A DNA stretch of 64,000 nt from Saprospiraceae bacterium (GTDB lineage: Bacteria; Bacteroidota; Bacteroidia; Chitinophagales; Saprospiraceae), in contig JAHDGJ010000013.1 of the NCBI GenBank assembly GCA_020627705.1, forward strand, positions 1-64,000, in the 5' to 3' direction. Under the pieces are notes generated by a model. That model was not told where the DNA came from. It made no database searches and saw only the letters and a program-made list of their open reading frames with translations. Below are positions 22,017 through 41,957 of the stretch, piece after piece (within the stretch, counting starts at the first letter, position 1; each line of letters starts with the position of its first letter). Both the position numbers and the translations under genes were made by a program.

Positions 22017-23153
22017 ATGAAGGAATTAGCACAATTAATCTTTCCATTGGACAGATACACGGGGCCAGATAATTTTTGCGACCGAAAAAAAGAACTCAAC
22101 CGATTGTTCGAGATATTTACAGAAGGAAGAAACGTCGTATTATACTCAATAAGAAGACTAGGCAAAACTGGTTTAATTCATCATTTCCATCACAGCTTGT
22201 CCAAACGAAAAAAAGTAGTACCCGTTTATTTGGATGTAATGGATACAAATTCTGACAGCGAGTTTGCCAACAAACTTATATCCGCTTGTATCAATGCATT
22301 AGAAAAAAAGAAAAAAGGCTTTTTGCAAAACTCAATCCAGCTCTTCTCTCGTTTTCGACCAATTATAAGTTTTGACCCCATTACCAACAGCCCCAGCATT
22401 CAATTGGATATAGAAAAACCAGCAGATATTAAACTTTCTATTCAAACCTTAATTCAATTGCTCGGCCAACAGAAATATTCCTTTCAAATAGCAATTGATG
22501 AATTTCAACAAATAAGCAAGTATGAAACAACCCGCATTGACGCAACACTGCGGTCACATTTTCAAACTGCAACAAATATTCATTATTTGTTTTCTGGCAG
22601 TGAAAACAACCTATTAAGTCATTTGTTTTTCGATGCCAACAAACCACTTTTTGGTTCAGTGGAACTTATGGAACTCGGGTTTATAGAAAGAGAGGAATAT
22701 GCAAGCTTCATTCAATCACAACTCAAAAAATTAAAAAAATCCATTTCGCTGGACCTATGTCATCAGATATTAGAATGGACCGAAGGCCACACCTTTTATA
22801 CACAATATTTTTGCAATAAACTTAATGGAAAACGCATTAGTAAAATTTCTGAATTGGATCTCAAAGAGCTTCAAAATGAAATCCTATATCAATATGAAGT
22901 CATCTATATTAATTACAAAAAATTACTTAGCAAAAATCAATGGAAGATGCTTGTCGGCATCGCTAAGGAAGGCACTGTAAAAGAATATAGCGCTCGAAGT
23001 TTTTTATCAAAATATAACTTAGCACAAGCCAGCGCGCAACAATCTATTGAAGCCTTACTTAAAAAATCAATGATCAGAGAAGAACTTAGAGCACCTGTTG
23101 GGTACAAGGTCTATGATGTCTATTTAAAACGCTGGATCGAACGCTTCGTTTAA
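22017..23153 (+). CDS. P-loop ATPase of the archaeal-type/STAND-like AAA group
   Basis: A 378-residue ATP-binding protein. Residues 10-35 show the usual lead-in of this group (PLDRYTGPDNFCDRKKEL). The Walker A is the atypical SIRRLGKTGLI (RRxGKT form) and the Walker B is FQIAIDEFQQI. A later GSENNLLSHLFFD segment matches the sensor region, and a C-terminal winged-helix-like region follows. Proteins of this type are common in Bacteroidota and archaea; roles suggested for relatives include signalling and mobile-element or toxin functions, and none can be chosen here. The gene converges with the LexA-like repressor, overlapping by four bases. Confidence 0.75.
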   Translation: MKELAQLIFPLDRYTGPDNFCDRKKELNRLFEIFTEGRNVVLYSIRRLGKTGLIHHFHHSLSKRKKVVPVYLDVMDTNSDSEFANKLISACINALEKKKKGFLQNSIQLFSRFRPIISFDPITNSPSIQLDIEKPADIKLSIQTLIQLLGQQKYSFQIAIDEFQQISKYETTRIDATLRSHFQTATNIHYLFSGSENNLLSHLFFDANKPLFGSVELMELGFIEREEYASFIQSQLKKLKKSISLDLCHQILEWTEGHTFYTQYFCNKLNGKRISKISELDLKELQNEILYQYEVIYINYKKLLSKNQWKMLVGIAKEGTVKEYSARSFLSKYNLAQASAQQSIEALLKKSMIREELRAPVGYKVYDVYLKRWIERFV

Positions 23154-23896
23154 AGTGTTGCTTTTAAGTGCTTCACATCAGCACGAATCTCTTGAAGCAA
23201 TTGCCGCTCCGTTATAAAATCGATTGCAGTGCTAAGCACACTATGAAAAGACCATAATTCTTGAATGTCAGAGGGCTCAATTTCTACAGGCTCATAGGAC
23301 TCATTCAAAGATTCCAACCACCACTCCTCTCCATTAAGTTGTAGTTTTTTAATCCTCAATCCATCTTTTTCTACAAAAACATACACTTTACCATGCTTTG
23401 CATCTTTCAAAGACTCAACAGCACGAGCAATCACCCAATCGCCTTCTTTAATTGCGGGCATCATACTGTCTCCTTTAACTTGAAAACCTCTAAAGGATGC
23501 ATTGCGGTATTCCGTCAATGGAATACTAAACACCGGCAAATCGGCAATGAAATTTTCTTGATCCAAATTGCCCGCATAACCCGCTGCTGCTTTGGCATTA
23601 ACCATTAAAATATTTTCTTGACCCACCCCATCTACGCTAATCATTTTTGGTGCAGGATTATGGGGCTTCTGTTTTAAGCTTTTTTGTTGGCTCTGACCAT
23701 AAAGCCACATAGGATTAATGTGATATTGCCGCGCCAACTCCATGACGACCTTTCCAGACAACTTTACTTTCCCTCGTTCTAGATCTACCGTTGAATGCTT
23801 TACTCCTAACGATTCAGCAAATGCAGCTTGTGTTAATCCCAGTTCTTCTCGAACTTCTCGTAATCGTTTTACTTCTATGGTTAATGCACTGCTCAT
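23150..23896 (-). CDS. LexA-like transcriptional repressor (XRE HTH plus S24 peptidase)
   Basis: A 248-residue self-cleaving repressor. Residues 7-65 are a Cro/CI-type helix-turn-helix (LGLTQAAFAESLGVKHSTVD) and residues 100-235 an S24 peptidase fold. Cleavage machinery is present: candidate Ala-Gly scissile bond in AKAAAGYAGN (A105-G106), nucleophile Ser144 in KGDSMMPAI and general base Lys183 in GLRIKKL, 39 residues later, matching LexA geometry. It should lose DNA binding on DNA damage by RecA-stimulated cleavage (family knowledge). It is the distal gene of a two-gene operon, coupled by ATGA overlap to a membrane protein, and divergent from dinB across two inverted repeats that are good operator candidates. 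It is not a canonical winged-helix LexA. Confidence 0.88.
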   Translation of the reverse strand: MSSALTIEVKRLREVREELGLTQAAFAESLGVKHSTVDLERGKVKLSGKVVMELARQYHINPMWLYGQSQQKSLKQKPHNPAPKMISVDGVGQENILMVNAKAAAGYAGNLDQENFIADLPVFSIPLTEYRNASFRGFQVKGDSMMPAIKEGDWVIARAVESLKDAKHGKVYVFVEKDGLRIKKLQLNGEEWWLESLNESYEPVEIEPSDIQELWSFHSVLSTAIDFITERQLLQEIRADVKHLKATL

Positions 23897-24426: not shown

Positions 24427-24492
24427 CAAAAATACAAATAAAAAATTAAGTATGGAATATTTCCATGCATTTGGAATATTTCCATACATTTG
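24427..24492. promoter_or_regulatory. Divergent SOS-type control region: two operators between two -7 boxes
   Basis: Two copies of TGGAATATTTCCA (inverted repeat TGGAA-TAT-TTCCA) lie at 24453-24465 and 24472-24484, 19 bases centre to centre; the first extends to ATGGAA...TTCCAT. TACATTTG at 24485-24492 matches the Bacteroidota -7 consensus TAnnTTTG and abuts the second operator, 18 bases before the dinB ATG. On the minus strand TATTTTTG (24427-24434) is a matching -7 box for the repressor operon. A repressor on these sites would block both promoters. No correctly spaced -33 TTG was found for either. Confidence 0.72.
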
Positions 24493-24509
24493 TTTTATCG
24501 AATGATAAT

Positions 24510-25724
24510 ATGCAACGTACTATCCTACATATGGACCTTGACAGCTTCTTCGTCTCCGTAGAACGCTTGATTGATAGCCGCCTAAACGGCAAGCCTATAT
24601 TAGTAGGAGGCACTGGAGATCGAGGCGTGGTCTCTACTGCCAGTTATGAAGCACGCAAATTTGGAGCACACTCTGGCATGCCCATGCGTATGGCTCGTGC
24701 ACTTTGTCCAGAGGCGATTGTGATTAGAGGAAACGCAGGTAATTACACCAAGTATTCTAAAGCGGTGACGGAGATCATCAAAGGAGAGGTTCCACTACTC
24801 GAAAAAGCGAGCATAGATGAGTTTTATGCAGACCTCTCTGGGATGGACAAATATGTAGGCTGTTATAAGTTTTCGAGCGAACTGCGACAACAAATTATAA
24901 AAGAAACAGGACTCCCTATTTCTTTTGGCCTTTCGGCGAATAAGACCGTATCCAAAGTAGCTACTGGAGAAGCCAAACCCAACAATCAGATCAAGATAGA
25001 TTCGGGCTACGAAAAACCTTTTTTGGCTCCCCTATCTATCAAGAAAATTCCGATGGTTGGCGACAAAATGTTTCAAACCTTTTGCAACTTAGGCATCAAG
25101 CGAGTACAAAAAGTGCAACAGATGCCCGTAGAGATGATGGAGTCTGTTTTTGGTAAAAACGGAAGGACTGTTTGGAAACGATCTAACGGCATAGACGATC
25201 GCCCCTTAATCGAATACCACGAACGCAAATCGATCTCCAGCGAGCGAACGTTTGGAAAAGACACCACCAATGTCTACAAGCTCAAAACGATCATACGTGC
25301 TATGGCCGAAGACTTGGCTTTTCAACTTCGCAACGGCAACCGATTGACTTCTTGTGTGGCTGTCAAAATCAGATACTCCGACTTCAACACCTACAGCAAA
25401 CAAATGAAGATCCCCTACACCTCAGCTGACCACAATCTGATCGATCGAGTGTTAGAACTCTTCAATAGTCTATACAACCGCCGTCTACTCGTCAGGTTGA
25501 TCGGTGTACGGTTTAGCAGCCTCGTAGAAGGAAACTATCAAATCAATCTTTTTGAAAACACGACCAAAACGGTCAATTTATATAAAGCAATGGATAACAT
25601 ACGAAACAAGTACGGAAGCAGAAGTGTCATTCGTGCTTCGACCTACGGGGCAAAAACCATCGGTGGGTTTACTAATCCCTTTAATGGAGAACCCCCTGTT
25701 GTTTTGGCGCATAGGCATCAGTAG
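24510..25724 (+). CDS. dinB: Y-family translesion DNA polymerase (DNA polymerase IV)
   Basis: Error-prone lesion-bypass polymerase, 404 residues. I start at the ATG at 24510 (MQRTILHMDLDSFF). An earlier ATG in frame (24465) lies within the proposed operator and upstream of the -7 box, so it cannot be in the transcript. Palm residues are Asp9 and the SIDEF acidic pair (Asp103, Glu104); the steric/YEAR segment is STASYEARKFGAHSGMPM. Helix-hairpin-helix and little-finger domains follow, with a candidate sliding-clamp motif QINLF (residues 344-348). It heads the mutagenesis operon opposite the LexA-like repressor. A heptamer repeat begins one base after its stop. Confidence 0.94.
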   Translation: MQRTILHMDLDSFFVSVERLIDSRLNGKPILVGGTGDRGVVSTASYEARKFGAHSGMPMRMARALCPEAIVIRGNAGNYTKYSKAVTEIIKGEVPLLEKASIDEFYADLSGMDKYVGCYKFSSELRQQIIKETGLPISFGLSANKTVSKVATGEAKPNNQIKIDSGYEKPFLAPLSIKKIPMVGDKMFQTFCNLGIKRVQKVQQMPVEMMESVFGKNGRTVWKRSNGIDDRPLIEYHERKSISSERTFGKDTTNVYKLKTIIRAMAEDLAFQLRNGNRLTSCVAVKIRYSDFNTYSKQMKIPYTSADHNLIDRVLELFNSLYNRRLLVRLIGVRFSSLVEGNYQINLFENTTKTVNLYKAMDNIRNKYGSRSVIRASTYGAKTIGGFTNPFNGEPPVVLAHRHQ

Positions 25725-25725
25725 C

Positions 25726-25757
25726 GGGGTTCGGGGTTCGGGGTTCGGGGTTCGGTT
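25726..25757 (+). repeat. Heptamer array (GGGGTTC)4, left arm
   Basis: Four exact tandem copies of GGGGTTC plus a partial fifth unit, beginning one base after the dinB stop codon. Four G4 runs separated by TTC fit a G-quadruplex on the coding strand. The array is followed by TTTAAAGAAATTA, almost the same flank as the second direct array at 28435. It is complementary to the degenerate C-rich array at 26192-26258 on the other side of the four-helix-bundle ORF. Confidence 0.9.
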
Positions 25758-25794
25758 TAAAGAAATTACTATATGGTATTAAGGGTAAAACGAT

Positions 25795-26148
25795 ATGGGA
25801 AATTTTCGAAAACTACATGTTTGGTTGATGTCAAAAGATTTGGCTGTATCTATCTATAAGCTAACTCGTAGTAACACAGAACTAAGAAAGGATTTTCGCC
25901 TTAAGCAACAGATATGTTCATCGGCTGTTTCTATCGCCTCAAATATTGCTGAAGGAGAAATGCTAAGCAGTTATAAACAACGAAACAGACATTTTTACAT
26001 TGCTAAAGGATCAGCAGCAGAATTGATCACTCAACTAATGATTGCTAATGAAATAGAATATATTACAAAAGATAAAAGCGAAAAACTAATTGATCGATGT
26101 GATCATATCGCTGCGACACTTCAAAAATTAATTAACATTCATAGTTAA
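25795..26148 (+). CDS. Four-helix-bundle protein (S23 / 23S-IVS / Avd-like family)
   Basis: A 117-residue all-helical protein of the family that includes proteins encoded in 23S rRNA intervening sequences and the Avd accessory protein of diversity-generating retroelements. Typical features are the start FRKLHVWLMSKDLAVSIYKLT, the central QICSSAVSIASNIAEG motif and the RNRHFYIAKGSAAELITQL helix. Family members form positively charged pentameric barrels that bind nucleic acid (family knowledge). Here it is alone, with no reverse transcriptase or rRNA. It sits between two short-unit arrays of opposite orientation, inside the mutagenesis operon, which suggests it arrived as an insertion. Confidence 0.9.
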   Translation: MGNFRKLHVWLMSKDLAVSIYKLTRSNTELRKDFRLKQQICSSAVSIASNIAEGEMLSSYKQRNRHFYIAKGSAAELITQLMIANEIEYITKDKSEKLIDRCDHIAATLQKLINIHS

Positions 26149-26191
26149 AACATATGACCATACAACTAACAAAACATAATCCCTACGATCA

Positions 26192-26258
26192 CCGAAATCC
26201 GAACACCGAACACCGAAACCCGAAACCCGAAACCCGAACACCTAAATTCGAATACCGC
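26192..26258 (+). repeat. Degenerate inverted heptamer array (CCGAAAC/CCGAACA), right arm
   Basis: Nine consecutive 7-base units with consensus CCGAA(A/C)(C/A), the last two degenerate (CCTAAAT, TCGAATA), then CCGC. The reverse complement of GGGGTTC is GAACCCC, so this array can pair with the left arm at 25726, bringing the four-helix-bundle ORF into the loop of a large imperfect hairpin of about 530 bases. It ends 18 bases before the SRAP start codon. Confidence 0.88.
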
Positions 26259-26276
26259 TAATTACACCGCTAAATC

Positions 26277-27122
26277 ATGTGTGGAAGATATACCGTAATC
26301 ACCAAAATGAAAGTCGTCGAAAAAAGATTTCAAGTCGATGCAACTGAGGTAAAAGAGCATTTTACCCACAACGTCAATGTAGCTCCTGGAGACAAAGCGC
26401 CTGTCATCACCAGTGCTGAGCCACACAAGCTTCAGCTCTTTAATTTTGGCATATCTCCTTCGTGGGCTAAAAAACGCATGTACCTTATCAATGCCCGAAG
26501 TGAAGGGGATCACAACAAAGAAAATGACCCCAATTACAAGGGCTCTAAAGGCATCATTCGAAAGCCCAGCTTTCGAAAACCTATTCGATCGCAACGATGC
26601 TTAGTGATCGCAGATGCCTTTATTGAAGGTCCCGAAAAAGAACGCTTAAACAAACCGTATTTGGTCTACTCCAAAGACAAAAAAAGACCCTTTGCTCTTG
26701 CTGGAATTTGGGACGAATGGGTCGATCAAAGCACAGGAGAAGTGCATCAAGGCTTTGCGATTATCACCACCACTCCCAATGCCCTTATTCAAAAGCTAGG
26801 ACACCACCGCAGTCCTGTAATCATCGAGAGAGAAGACGAACACAAGTGGTTGGACATCAACACCCCACTCCATGAAGTAACGAGCATACTCAAACCTTTT
26901 CCACCGGAAGATTTCAATGCTTACCCCATTTCTACCGACATCAAAAAAGCACACAACAAAGATGTAAGCCTACTCCAACCCACAGGTCAACGTCTTGTGA
27001 CTGAGTACGATTATATTCTTTTTCAAGAATTAGATCTTCAAGGCATGGGCGAATCTCAAGCCAAACGAAGACGAGAAAAAGAAGACAAAGACAACACCCA
27101 ATTGGATTTATTTAGCAACTAA
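26277..27122 (+). CDS. SOS response-associated peptidase (SRAP, YedK/HMCES family)
   Basis: Forms a thiazolidine crosslink with abasic sites in single-stranded DNA to protect them. The 281-residue protein begins MCGRYT, giving the required Cys2 after Met removal. Other active-site positions are Asn72 in INARSEG, Glu117 in ADAFIEG and His166 in GHHRSPVI. The usual FYEW around the glutamate is FIEG here. The C-terminus ends QLDLFSN (residues 275-281), a good match to bacterial sliding-clamp-binding peptides, fitting a role at stalled forks. It is followed after nine bases by a DinB-superfamily gene, and is part of the damage-response cluster. Confidence 0.93.
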   Translation: MCGRYTVITKMKVVEKRFQVDATEVKEHFTHNVNVAPGDKAPVITSAEPHKLQLFNFGISPSWAKKRMYLINARSEGDHNKENDPNYKGSKGIIRKPSFRKPIRSQRCLVIADAFIEGPEKERLNKPYLVYSKDKKRPFALAGIWDEWVDQSTGEVHQGFAIITTTPNALIQKLGHHRSPVIIEREDEHKWLDINTPLHEVTSILKPFPPEDFNAYPISTDIKKAHNKDVSLLQPTGQRLVTEYDYILFQELDLQGMGESQAKRRREKEDKDNTQLDLFSN

Positions 27123-28430: not shown

Positions 28431-28434
28431 AAGC

Positions 28435-28490
28435 GGGGTTCGGGGTTCGGGGTTCGGGGTTCGGGGTTCGGGGTTCGGGGTTCGGGGTTC
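28435..28490 (+). repeat. Heptamer array (GGGGTTC)8
   Basis: Eight exact tandem GGGGTTC units, starting four bases after the alkylation-repair stop. Like the array at 25726 it is preceded by AGC and followed within a few bases by TAAAAGAAATTA. The remaining 130 bases to the polymerase start are AT-rich; no second inverted array is visible there, so this copy lacks the right arm and the ORF. It could form two G-quadruplexes in the coding strand or mRNA. Confidence 0.92.
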
Positions 28491-28622
28491 GCTAAAAGAA
28501 ATTATTGATTTCCAAATTTCTAAACAAACACATAAGAAAGAAAAAAACACTAGAATACAAAACGCCAATATTTATTATAGAGCCTTTCTAGCACCGATTA
28601 CCTAACCACTAATTCCACCTCC

Positions 28623-41812: not shown

Positions 41813-41822
41813 TTTTATTCGT

Positions 41823-41957
41823 GATTGGTTGATTGGTTGATTGGTTGATTGGTTGATTGGTTGATTGGTTGATTGGTTGATTGGTTATAAAACTATTTTA
41901 TCCATCCCAATAACCGATAATCAATAACCAATAATCAATAACCAATAACGATTAACG
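41823..41957. repeat. Octamer array (GATTGGTT)8 facing a 14-mer inverted array
   Basis: Eight exact tandem GATTGGTT units (41823-41886), a 22-base AT-rich spacer, then three 14-base units AATAACC(G/A)ATAATC (41909-41950) and a decaying remnant. The second block is nearly the reverse complement of the first with an AT for TG shift, so the region can fold into a long imperfect hairpin. It occupies almost the whole gap between convergent arsM and chrA and could end both transcripts. Confidence 0.85.

Follow-up and report, generated by a model that had tools for sequence, protein, structure and literature searches.

A probable compact mobile element built from a four-helix-bundle gene between inverted heptamer or octamer arrays

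Small bacterial genes for a four-helix-bundle (4HB) protein frequently stand between arrays of 7- or 8-nt units that face each other as complementary arms, and we consider it probable that gene and arrays together form a compact mobile element, with an Avd-fold 4HB gene between the inverted arrays and with gene-less array pairs or single arrays as its short forms. In the full form, a G/T-rich arm would follow the stop codon of the upstream gene and the complementary arm would stand ahead of the next start codon.

Results

The element in the window

The window, i.e., the whole stretch of 64,000 nucleotides analysed from contig JAHDGJ010000013.1 of a Saprospiraceae bacterium (genome G000), contains one such locus (Table 1). 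The layout claimed for it in a sequence-only reading, facing complementary heptamer arrays around a lone 4HB gene, is real, since the arrays, the profile matches and the pairing of the arms were all found, and the claimed setting between two protein genes also holds, the neighbours being an IMS-family polymerase and an SRAP protein. In profile searches the 4HB ORF matches PF05635 (E 1.6e-29, 102.7 bits, cut-off 33.8) and TIGR02436 (E 3.8e-29, 101.1 bits, cut-off 24), and it is the sole ORF of at least 60 aa between the arms. The right arm is made up of seven clean CCGAA-type units and two to three decayed ones, and the SRAP start codon lies 19 nt past its end. Letters near-identical to TTTAAAGAAATTA recur at the same place inside two of the other six GGGGTTC arrays of G000. 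Further along the window, a solitary array of the same unit is perhaps a gene-less copy of the element's left end, and the arms of a candidate gene-less pair are complementary only in part (period 8 against period 7).

Table 1 Features of the window at and around the 4HB locus
Feature	Positions	Strand	Remarks
Candidate LexA/S24-like repressor gene	23150-23896		Putative, from a reading of the translation
TGGAATATTTCCA, twice in tandem	24453-24492		Just upstream of the dinB-type gene; candidate SOS-type operator
dinB-type (IMS-family) polymerase gene	24465..25724	+	Upstream neighbour
Left arm	25725..25755	+	(CGGGGTT)4.4, 100% matches; directly after TAG of the dinB-type gene
TTTAAAGAAATTA	25756..25768	+	Abuts the left arm on its inner side
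4HB ORF	25795..26148	+	117 aa, PF05635/TIGR02436; model pLDDT 95.3
Right arm	26191..26257	+	Period 7, ~nine CCGAA(A/C)(C/A) units, complementary to the left arm; arm score 20
SRAP gene	26277..27122	+	Downstream neighbour
Solitary (CGGGGTT)8 array	28434..28504	+	Just past another stop codon; TAAAAGAAATTA follows
(TGATTGGT)8 facing CCAATAA-type units	41822..41956	.	~20 nt apart; candidate gene-less pair

Arrays and matching arms accompany 4HB genes in many phyla

4HB loci were gathered by protein similarity alone, 30 + 40 from the window's family (including L093, from the Saprospiraceae MAG G093) and 80 named loci from a species-genome scan that spanned Bacteroidota, Spirochaetota, Fibrobacterota, Cyanobacteria, Chloroflexota, Alphaproteobacteria and others. 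Once identical genes were dropped, 156 remained, 142 of them with full flanks; they are phylogenetically non-independent, 19 of the 156 representing one orthologous site. Upstream of 4HB genes, 50 of 151 stretches had a period-7 array within 300 nt and 28 of 151 a period-8 array; downstream, the counts were 49 and 20 of 147. Control stretches taken 0.9-3.9 kb off at the same loci gave 33 (period 7) and 8 (period 8) of 1379. Periods 5, 6 and 9-12 occurred beside 4HB genes just 0-2 times per side. The likeness of the two arms was scored from an alignment of the stretch before the gene to the reverse-complemented stretch after it. This arm score had a median of 19 within loci, 8 between loci and 9 for distant stretches, and it reached at least 18 at 81 of 142 loci as against 2.9% of 1136 cross pairs and none of 92 distant stretches. 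Arrays of 7/8 nt or matching inverted arms thus mark 105 of the 142 4HB genes, across many phyla, and 37 have neither; an array on at least one side was found at 30 of 69 genes of the window's family and 60 of 73 of the wider sample. The self-contained unit of 4HB gene and facing arrays that had been read from the window alone is therefore a layout that recurs at many other loci.

A Pseudomonadota sample (30 loci, two of which repeat earlier ones) gave an arm score of at least 18 in 16 loci, against 28 of 870 cross pairs and none of 27 far stretches. Around the 29 SRAP genes that served as a control, this score was never reached; with the four 4HB-bearing junctions removed, any array was present at 1 of 25 and a score of at least 18 at 0 of 25. 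Two genomes were enumerated almost completely: of 32 listed matches, 30 were taken as loci and 26 could be located, and arrays or arms were present at 12 of the 22 copies that had full flanks. Armless 4HB copies are thus common. A single scan of viral contigs yielded one 4HB locus in phage, and that locus has an array. An array census, small and with many 4HB-poor pieces being short contigs, counted 3 arrays in 295 kb of 4HB-poor genomes (all on one contig) versus 17 in 381 kb of 4HB-rich ones (in 6 of 20 pieces), of which at least three flank a 4HB gene (L327); this contrast points the right way for an association of arrays with 4HB genes.

Several loci depart from the plain layout. Draft contigs can break in or near arrays (G052 contigs C73/C95, L064, L082), so such elements may be undercounted. 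Long direct repeats, with local scores of about 46-82, flank 4HB genes at L024, L069, L082, L062, L086, L145 and L057. Three Nostoc loci (L119, L135, L157) have three arrays per 4HB gene, one of them a second G-rich array that directly follows the gene, with the C-rich arm coming 200 nt downstream, which suggests nested insertion.

Could the arrays be slippage repeats beside an unrelated small gene, inverted by hairpin-templated correction, with no mobility system at all? Two close plasmids do differ in array length by exactly one whole unit, and PMC4679880 cites a study in which 7-mers were, for most of the genomes, the most abundant class among repeats of 5-11 nt. However, arrays of period 7/8 concentrate around 4HB genes, which is seen neither around SRAP genes nor at a distance of 0.9-3.9 kb, and this link to a gene separates them from simple sequence repeats in the sense of a tandem unit without one. 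The explanation is further strained by three arm-gene-arm copies at unrelated sites of one genome and by dispersed arrays that carry the resident element's unit (both below), and we regard it as highly implausible.

The arm-gene-arm unit moves

Mobility had been offered for the window as inference only, and it is seen in relatives. In genome G018, three 4HB elements (L391, L392, L393) lie at unrelated places; from arm to arm two copies are 96% identical over 546 nt and are 86-88% identical to the third, and their outer flanks align at background level only. Since the similarity is confined to arm-gene-arm and the sites are unrelated, arm-gene-arm moves as a unit.

Cyanobacterial plasmids provide filled and empty states of two sites on closely similar backbones, and for one of these sites a gene-less state as well. 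Between an integrase gene and its neighbour, the element is present in two Calothrix brevissima plasmids and the site is empty, with three bases from stop to start, in Aulosira, Tolypothrix, Nostoc carneum and Nodularia (76-91% identity). Between a TraM-type gene and its neighbour, N. edaphicum and Nostoc C052 carry the element, two C057 plasmids and one of UHCC 0926 are without it (51-52 nt stop-to-start), and ATCC 53789 (94% identity) has nearly the same left junction and no 4HB gene, with degenerate facing arrays of the same GGGAAC kind within 260 nt. A profile search of the empty or gene-less plasmid records gave no 4HB match. By eye, neither a target duplication nor a cut site was seen at the two plasmid sites, where some target bases are replaced, and the three G018 copies likewise show no duplication. 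No transposase gene lies within the window element, which sets it apart from the insertion sequence/MITE type.

The Calothrix plasmid pair was also considered as a case of homing and dropped, as the left flank is identical too and ordinary recombination explains it. In the Nostoc pair, the element has 3 mismatches in 484 positions and the flanks 349 in 2601; because ~800 nt to the right of the element are also more alike than the remaining flank, the pair is at most consistent with recent spread.

The dinB-SRAP junction itself was compared among the window's relatives. A 4HB gene occupies it in both G000 and G052, which belong to the same genus, and the two genes are sisters in the tree (support 0.864); the arms are built from GGGGTTC in G000 versus the 8-mer GGTTTAGC in G052. 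In G042 and G224 the junction is filled by 4HB genes that are not sisters of these; the placement of G042 apart from them has moderate support, at 0.547 for the wider node and 0.942 for the group without it. G025 has only a (TTGATAA)4 array without a 4HB gene, and G010, G066 and G069 have neither array nor 4HB gene. Vertical conservation at this junction, which the sequence-only reading had weighed against a mobile element, is hence partial: the sister gene of the same genus is there with a wholly different array, and the other junctions are empty, array-only or occupied by a non-sister gene.

Gene-less arrays carry the unit of a resident element

A search of the genome and its relatives for further 4HB genes, suggested along with the original claim, returned a single PF05635 gene in G000; dispersed arrays do match a 4HB element in G052, G125 and G018. 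GGGGTTC arrays stand at seven sites of G000 itself; six of these sites lack a 4HB gene and hold solitary arrays, and TAAA(A)GAAATTA stands just inside the array at three of the seven. Six relatives, of which three belong to the same genus and two of these three are just 73% and 64% complete, lack the exact GGGGTTC unit pair. Among seven genomes, G052 alone has arrays of GGTTTAGC; they stand at four places on its contigs, two being the ends left by a break in the dinB-SRAP array.

G125 contains 124 matches to the octamer GGGTTCGG, at no fewer than 54 sites among the first 100 matches listed; the octamer is missing from the congener G018 and from six further genomes. At 10 of 15 gene-less sites inspected by eye, arms face each other across a short spacer, and the core ATTGTGTG occurs at the array in five G125 stretches. 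Two loci (L371, L372) were examined because G125 arrays there stand ~600 nt apart: L371 held a 4HB gene with exactly GGGTTCGG arms, and L372, with its arrays on one strand, held none. The other G125 4HB genes examined (L034, L373, L374) do not have these arms, so that one of the four genes examined bears the dispersed unit. In 396 kb of G018, 8 of 15 sampled arrays share their unit with the arms of a 4HB element of that genome; three of these elements have ATTAACC and one has GACTTAC, a fifth 4HB gene having no detected array, and the remaining seven are of two further kinds absent from these arms.

In four genomes, therefore, species-specific units are common to the gene-bearing element and to scattered gene-less arrays, and the 4HB element seems to be the source of the repeat arrays scattered in its host genomes. 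Gene-less pairs in the sampled Rhizobiales genomes consist of AGGGCAGT/AGGGGAGT-type octamers across a spacer of roughly 15-75 nt (by eye). At L272-L275 and L282-L284, from the Brucella/Ochrobactrum group, TATGT/ACATA stands between array blocks of gene-less pairs, as if pairs had been inserted into pairs.

Arm matching looks like a DNA-level matter

Units vary from locus to locus while the two arms of one locus match, and even copies within one genome can differ (TGAGTTA, ATTGGGT and TTGAGGG-type units in G154). The covariation could be followed at one orthologous 4HB site common to Brucella/Ochrobactrum, Mesorhizobium and Phyllobacterium relatives, where the element has been inherited over the long term: left and right arms covary in whether their octamer has C or G, with a Spearman coefficient of 0.89 (n = 19 species, which are kin and hence not 19 independent cases). 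Locus L139, included in an initial set of 20 loci (0.90), was dropped as it has no flank match to the site.

Arms of this sort might serve an IVS-like selfish RNA, whose transcript folds via the arms and is cut by RNase III, with the protein binding the RNA hairpin and pairing selected in RNA. In the intervening sequences (IVSs) of 23S rRNA, as outlined in PMC4990558, an S23/IVP ORF likewise lies between complementary ends, and these sequences are patchily distributed and suspected to be mobile; protein family and ORF-in-a-stem layout are thus common to IVS and window element. The window arms would also pair as RNA (duplex at -49.9 kcal/mol versus -31.2 +/- 4.1 in single-base shuffles, none of 500 as low), and the genes flanking the elements mostly share their strand. 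The likeness claimed for the window extends to these ends and not to position: IVSs sit in 23S rRNA helices with a simple stem, whereas the present element lies between a dinB-type and an SRAP gene, has arms made of tandem 7/8-nt arrays and is accompanied by many gene-less relatives. An RNA family search of the window locus returned a single match, far below the gathering score. Furthermore, arm mismatches at 117 loci were symmetric between sense-strand (150) and antisense-strand (139) wobble, without a G.U bias, which lends no support to selection for an RNA hairpin and leaves the RNA-level part of the sequence-only reading unsupported. With many elements having arms that are long uniform arrays rather than tuned stems, and with the G018 copies at unrelated chromosomal sites between protein genes, we judge an IVS-like RNA distinctly unlikely. 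Given the wobble symmetry, arm matching looks like a matter of DNA.

G-quadruplex formation was considered as a general basis of the arrays and rejected, as many units lack G-tracts (e.g., GTATTAG, ATTAACC). Some arrays are block-structured (L259 8360-8423, L260 18025-18072, L256 1-161), with a variant unit beside the upstream gene and the present genome-wide unit inward (in L259, GTGATTC and then GGGGTTC), as if growth were directional.

The 4HB protein and the position of its arrays

The model of the window protein is a confident four-helix bundle, whose nearest solved structures are XCC0516 (2gsc) and BT_0352 (2rld), followed by Avd (8ub7, 4dwl; TM 0.75-0.79 relative to query length, with Foldseek E values above 0.01), so the predicted fold is of the Avd type. 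A Pseudomonadota 4HB gene 69% identical to XCC0516 (L332) is flanked by GGGATTC-type heptamers, near the published Xanthomonas unit.

The likeness to Avd, a component of diversity-generating retroelements, opens the option of an RT-dependent retroelement, in which the 4HB protein acts as Avd does and a reverse transcriptase copies array RNA; a templated process of this kind would fit unit replacement as well. However, no RVT_1 match, and so no reverse transcriptase of such a retroelement, was found in G000 (98.7% complete), and none of the annotated neighbours of the window 4HB gene is a reverse transcriptase, which leaves this option very improbable. The missing G.U bias together with the missing RVT_1 match in the host favours a DNA-level element over an RNA hairpin or an RT-driven one.

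With respect to genes, 76 upstream arrays had an adjoining long ORF, on the same strand in 53 cases and the opposite in 23, and the array began at a median of 3.5 nt after the stop codon (<=15 nt in 37 of 46 with a defined stop). Downstream ORFs were on the same strand in 51 cases and the opposite in 15, with the first ATG at a median of 23.5 nt past the array (n = 50; <=40 nt in 30). Xanthomonas and Nostoc arrays are similarly placed in a passage of Rehm et al. (PMC4692102). At the Rhizobiales site, the protein is under purifying selection, with dN/dS about 0.02-0.16 in the six close pairs used (most of the 153 pairs being unusable or misaligned).

Closeness to stop and start codons, shared with the published arrays, is what one would expect of a domesticated regulator, a 4HB protein for which arrays near stop codons are binding sites of the operator or terminator kind and which is retained for this function, and purifying selection and the long stay at one operon site fit such a regulator too. 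It leaves the three G018 copies unexplained, and sequence-specific binding is unlikely given that units are wholly different between congeners. We hold this explanation to be unlikely.

Discussion

How might the mobile element work? The element has neither transposase nor reverse transcriptase and G000 has no RVT_1 match, from which we infer action of the protein on array DNA with the help of host enzymes. The arrays would be the DNA ends on which the system acts. The 4HB protein, probably an oligomer, would bind folded or single-stranded array DNA and recruit host replication or repair enzymes, and it may itself drive movement or copying. The arms may stay alike because one is copied from the other while the DNA strand is folded, with template switching from array to array; such copying between arms and arrays would also disseminate the resident unit and give rise to mixed arrays like that of L259.

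This mode of working would resemble the REPIN-RAYT system, with a protein without known catalytic domain. In REPIN-RAYT, a resident gene is flanked by a repeat that it shares with many dispersed gene-less intergenic palindromes, and the RAYT is a catalytic REP-associated tyrosine (Y1/HUH) transposase. Dispersed gene-less palindromes of the resident repeat are also found in relatives, whereas G000 shows solitary arrays only. In place of a Y1/HUH transposase, the repeats of the window element enclose, among ORFs of at least 60 aa, only the PF05635 ORF, whose product is a small bundle of helices with no catalytic residues known. Its repeat unit also changes between congeners.

Repeats of this kind have been described under several names. 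Octamer AGGGCAGT is the HOOF-print typing unit of Brucella (published in PMC7589603), and the Rhizobiales gene-less pairs carry the matching octamer. Bru-RS palindromes have, by description alone, a paired inverted layout like that of the gene-less Ochrobactrum/Brucella-group pairs (PMC2266754, PMC2267715). Both are presented as repeats or typing markers, with no link to a 4HB gene in the parts of these sources that describe them (PMC7589603, PMC2266754, PMC2267715). For Xanthomonas and Nostoc, sections of Rehm 2015 (PMC4692102) report GGGNATC heptamers near stop codons, with 70 inverted pairs in Xcc, treated as G-quadruplex repeats that were generally not found with mobile elements; the terms 'four helix' and 'S23' are absent from its text. 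The solved 4HB protein XCC0516 (2gsc) comes from the same species as the Xcc arrays. The open-access literature, judged mostly from search listings and with subscription papers and preprints mostly outside it, offered no link of PF05635/S23/4HB genes to these arrays.

We lean, by a small degree, towards a broader reading, in which a non-catalytic 4HB protein and inverted, fast-changing 7/8-nt arrays constitute a new class of bacterial mobile DNA that seeds gene-less arrays and whose remains make up much of the heptamer and octamer repeats of bacteria. These would include the Brucella octamers and Bru-RS, the GGGNATC repeats of Xanthomonas and Nostoc, and perhaps the heptamers of cyanobacteria and Beggiatoa. 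Mobile DNA of this type would be new to the literature. If true, repeat families described separately for decades would have a common origin, and a role would be found for a protein family that is very common, has two solved structures and lacks a known function. Bacteria would moreover harbor a mobile element without recognisable recombinase or reverse transcriptase, the ends of which are tandem arrays that turn over between species with both arms still matched.
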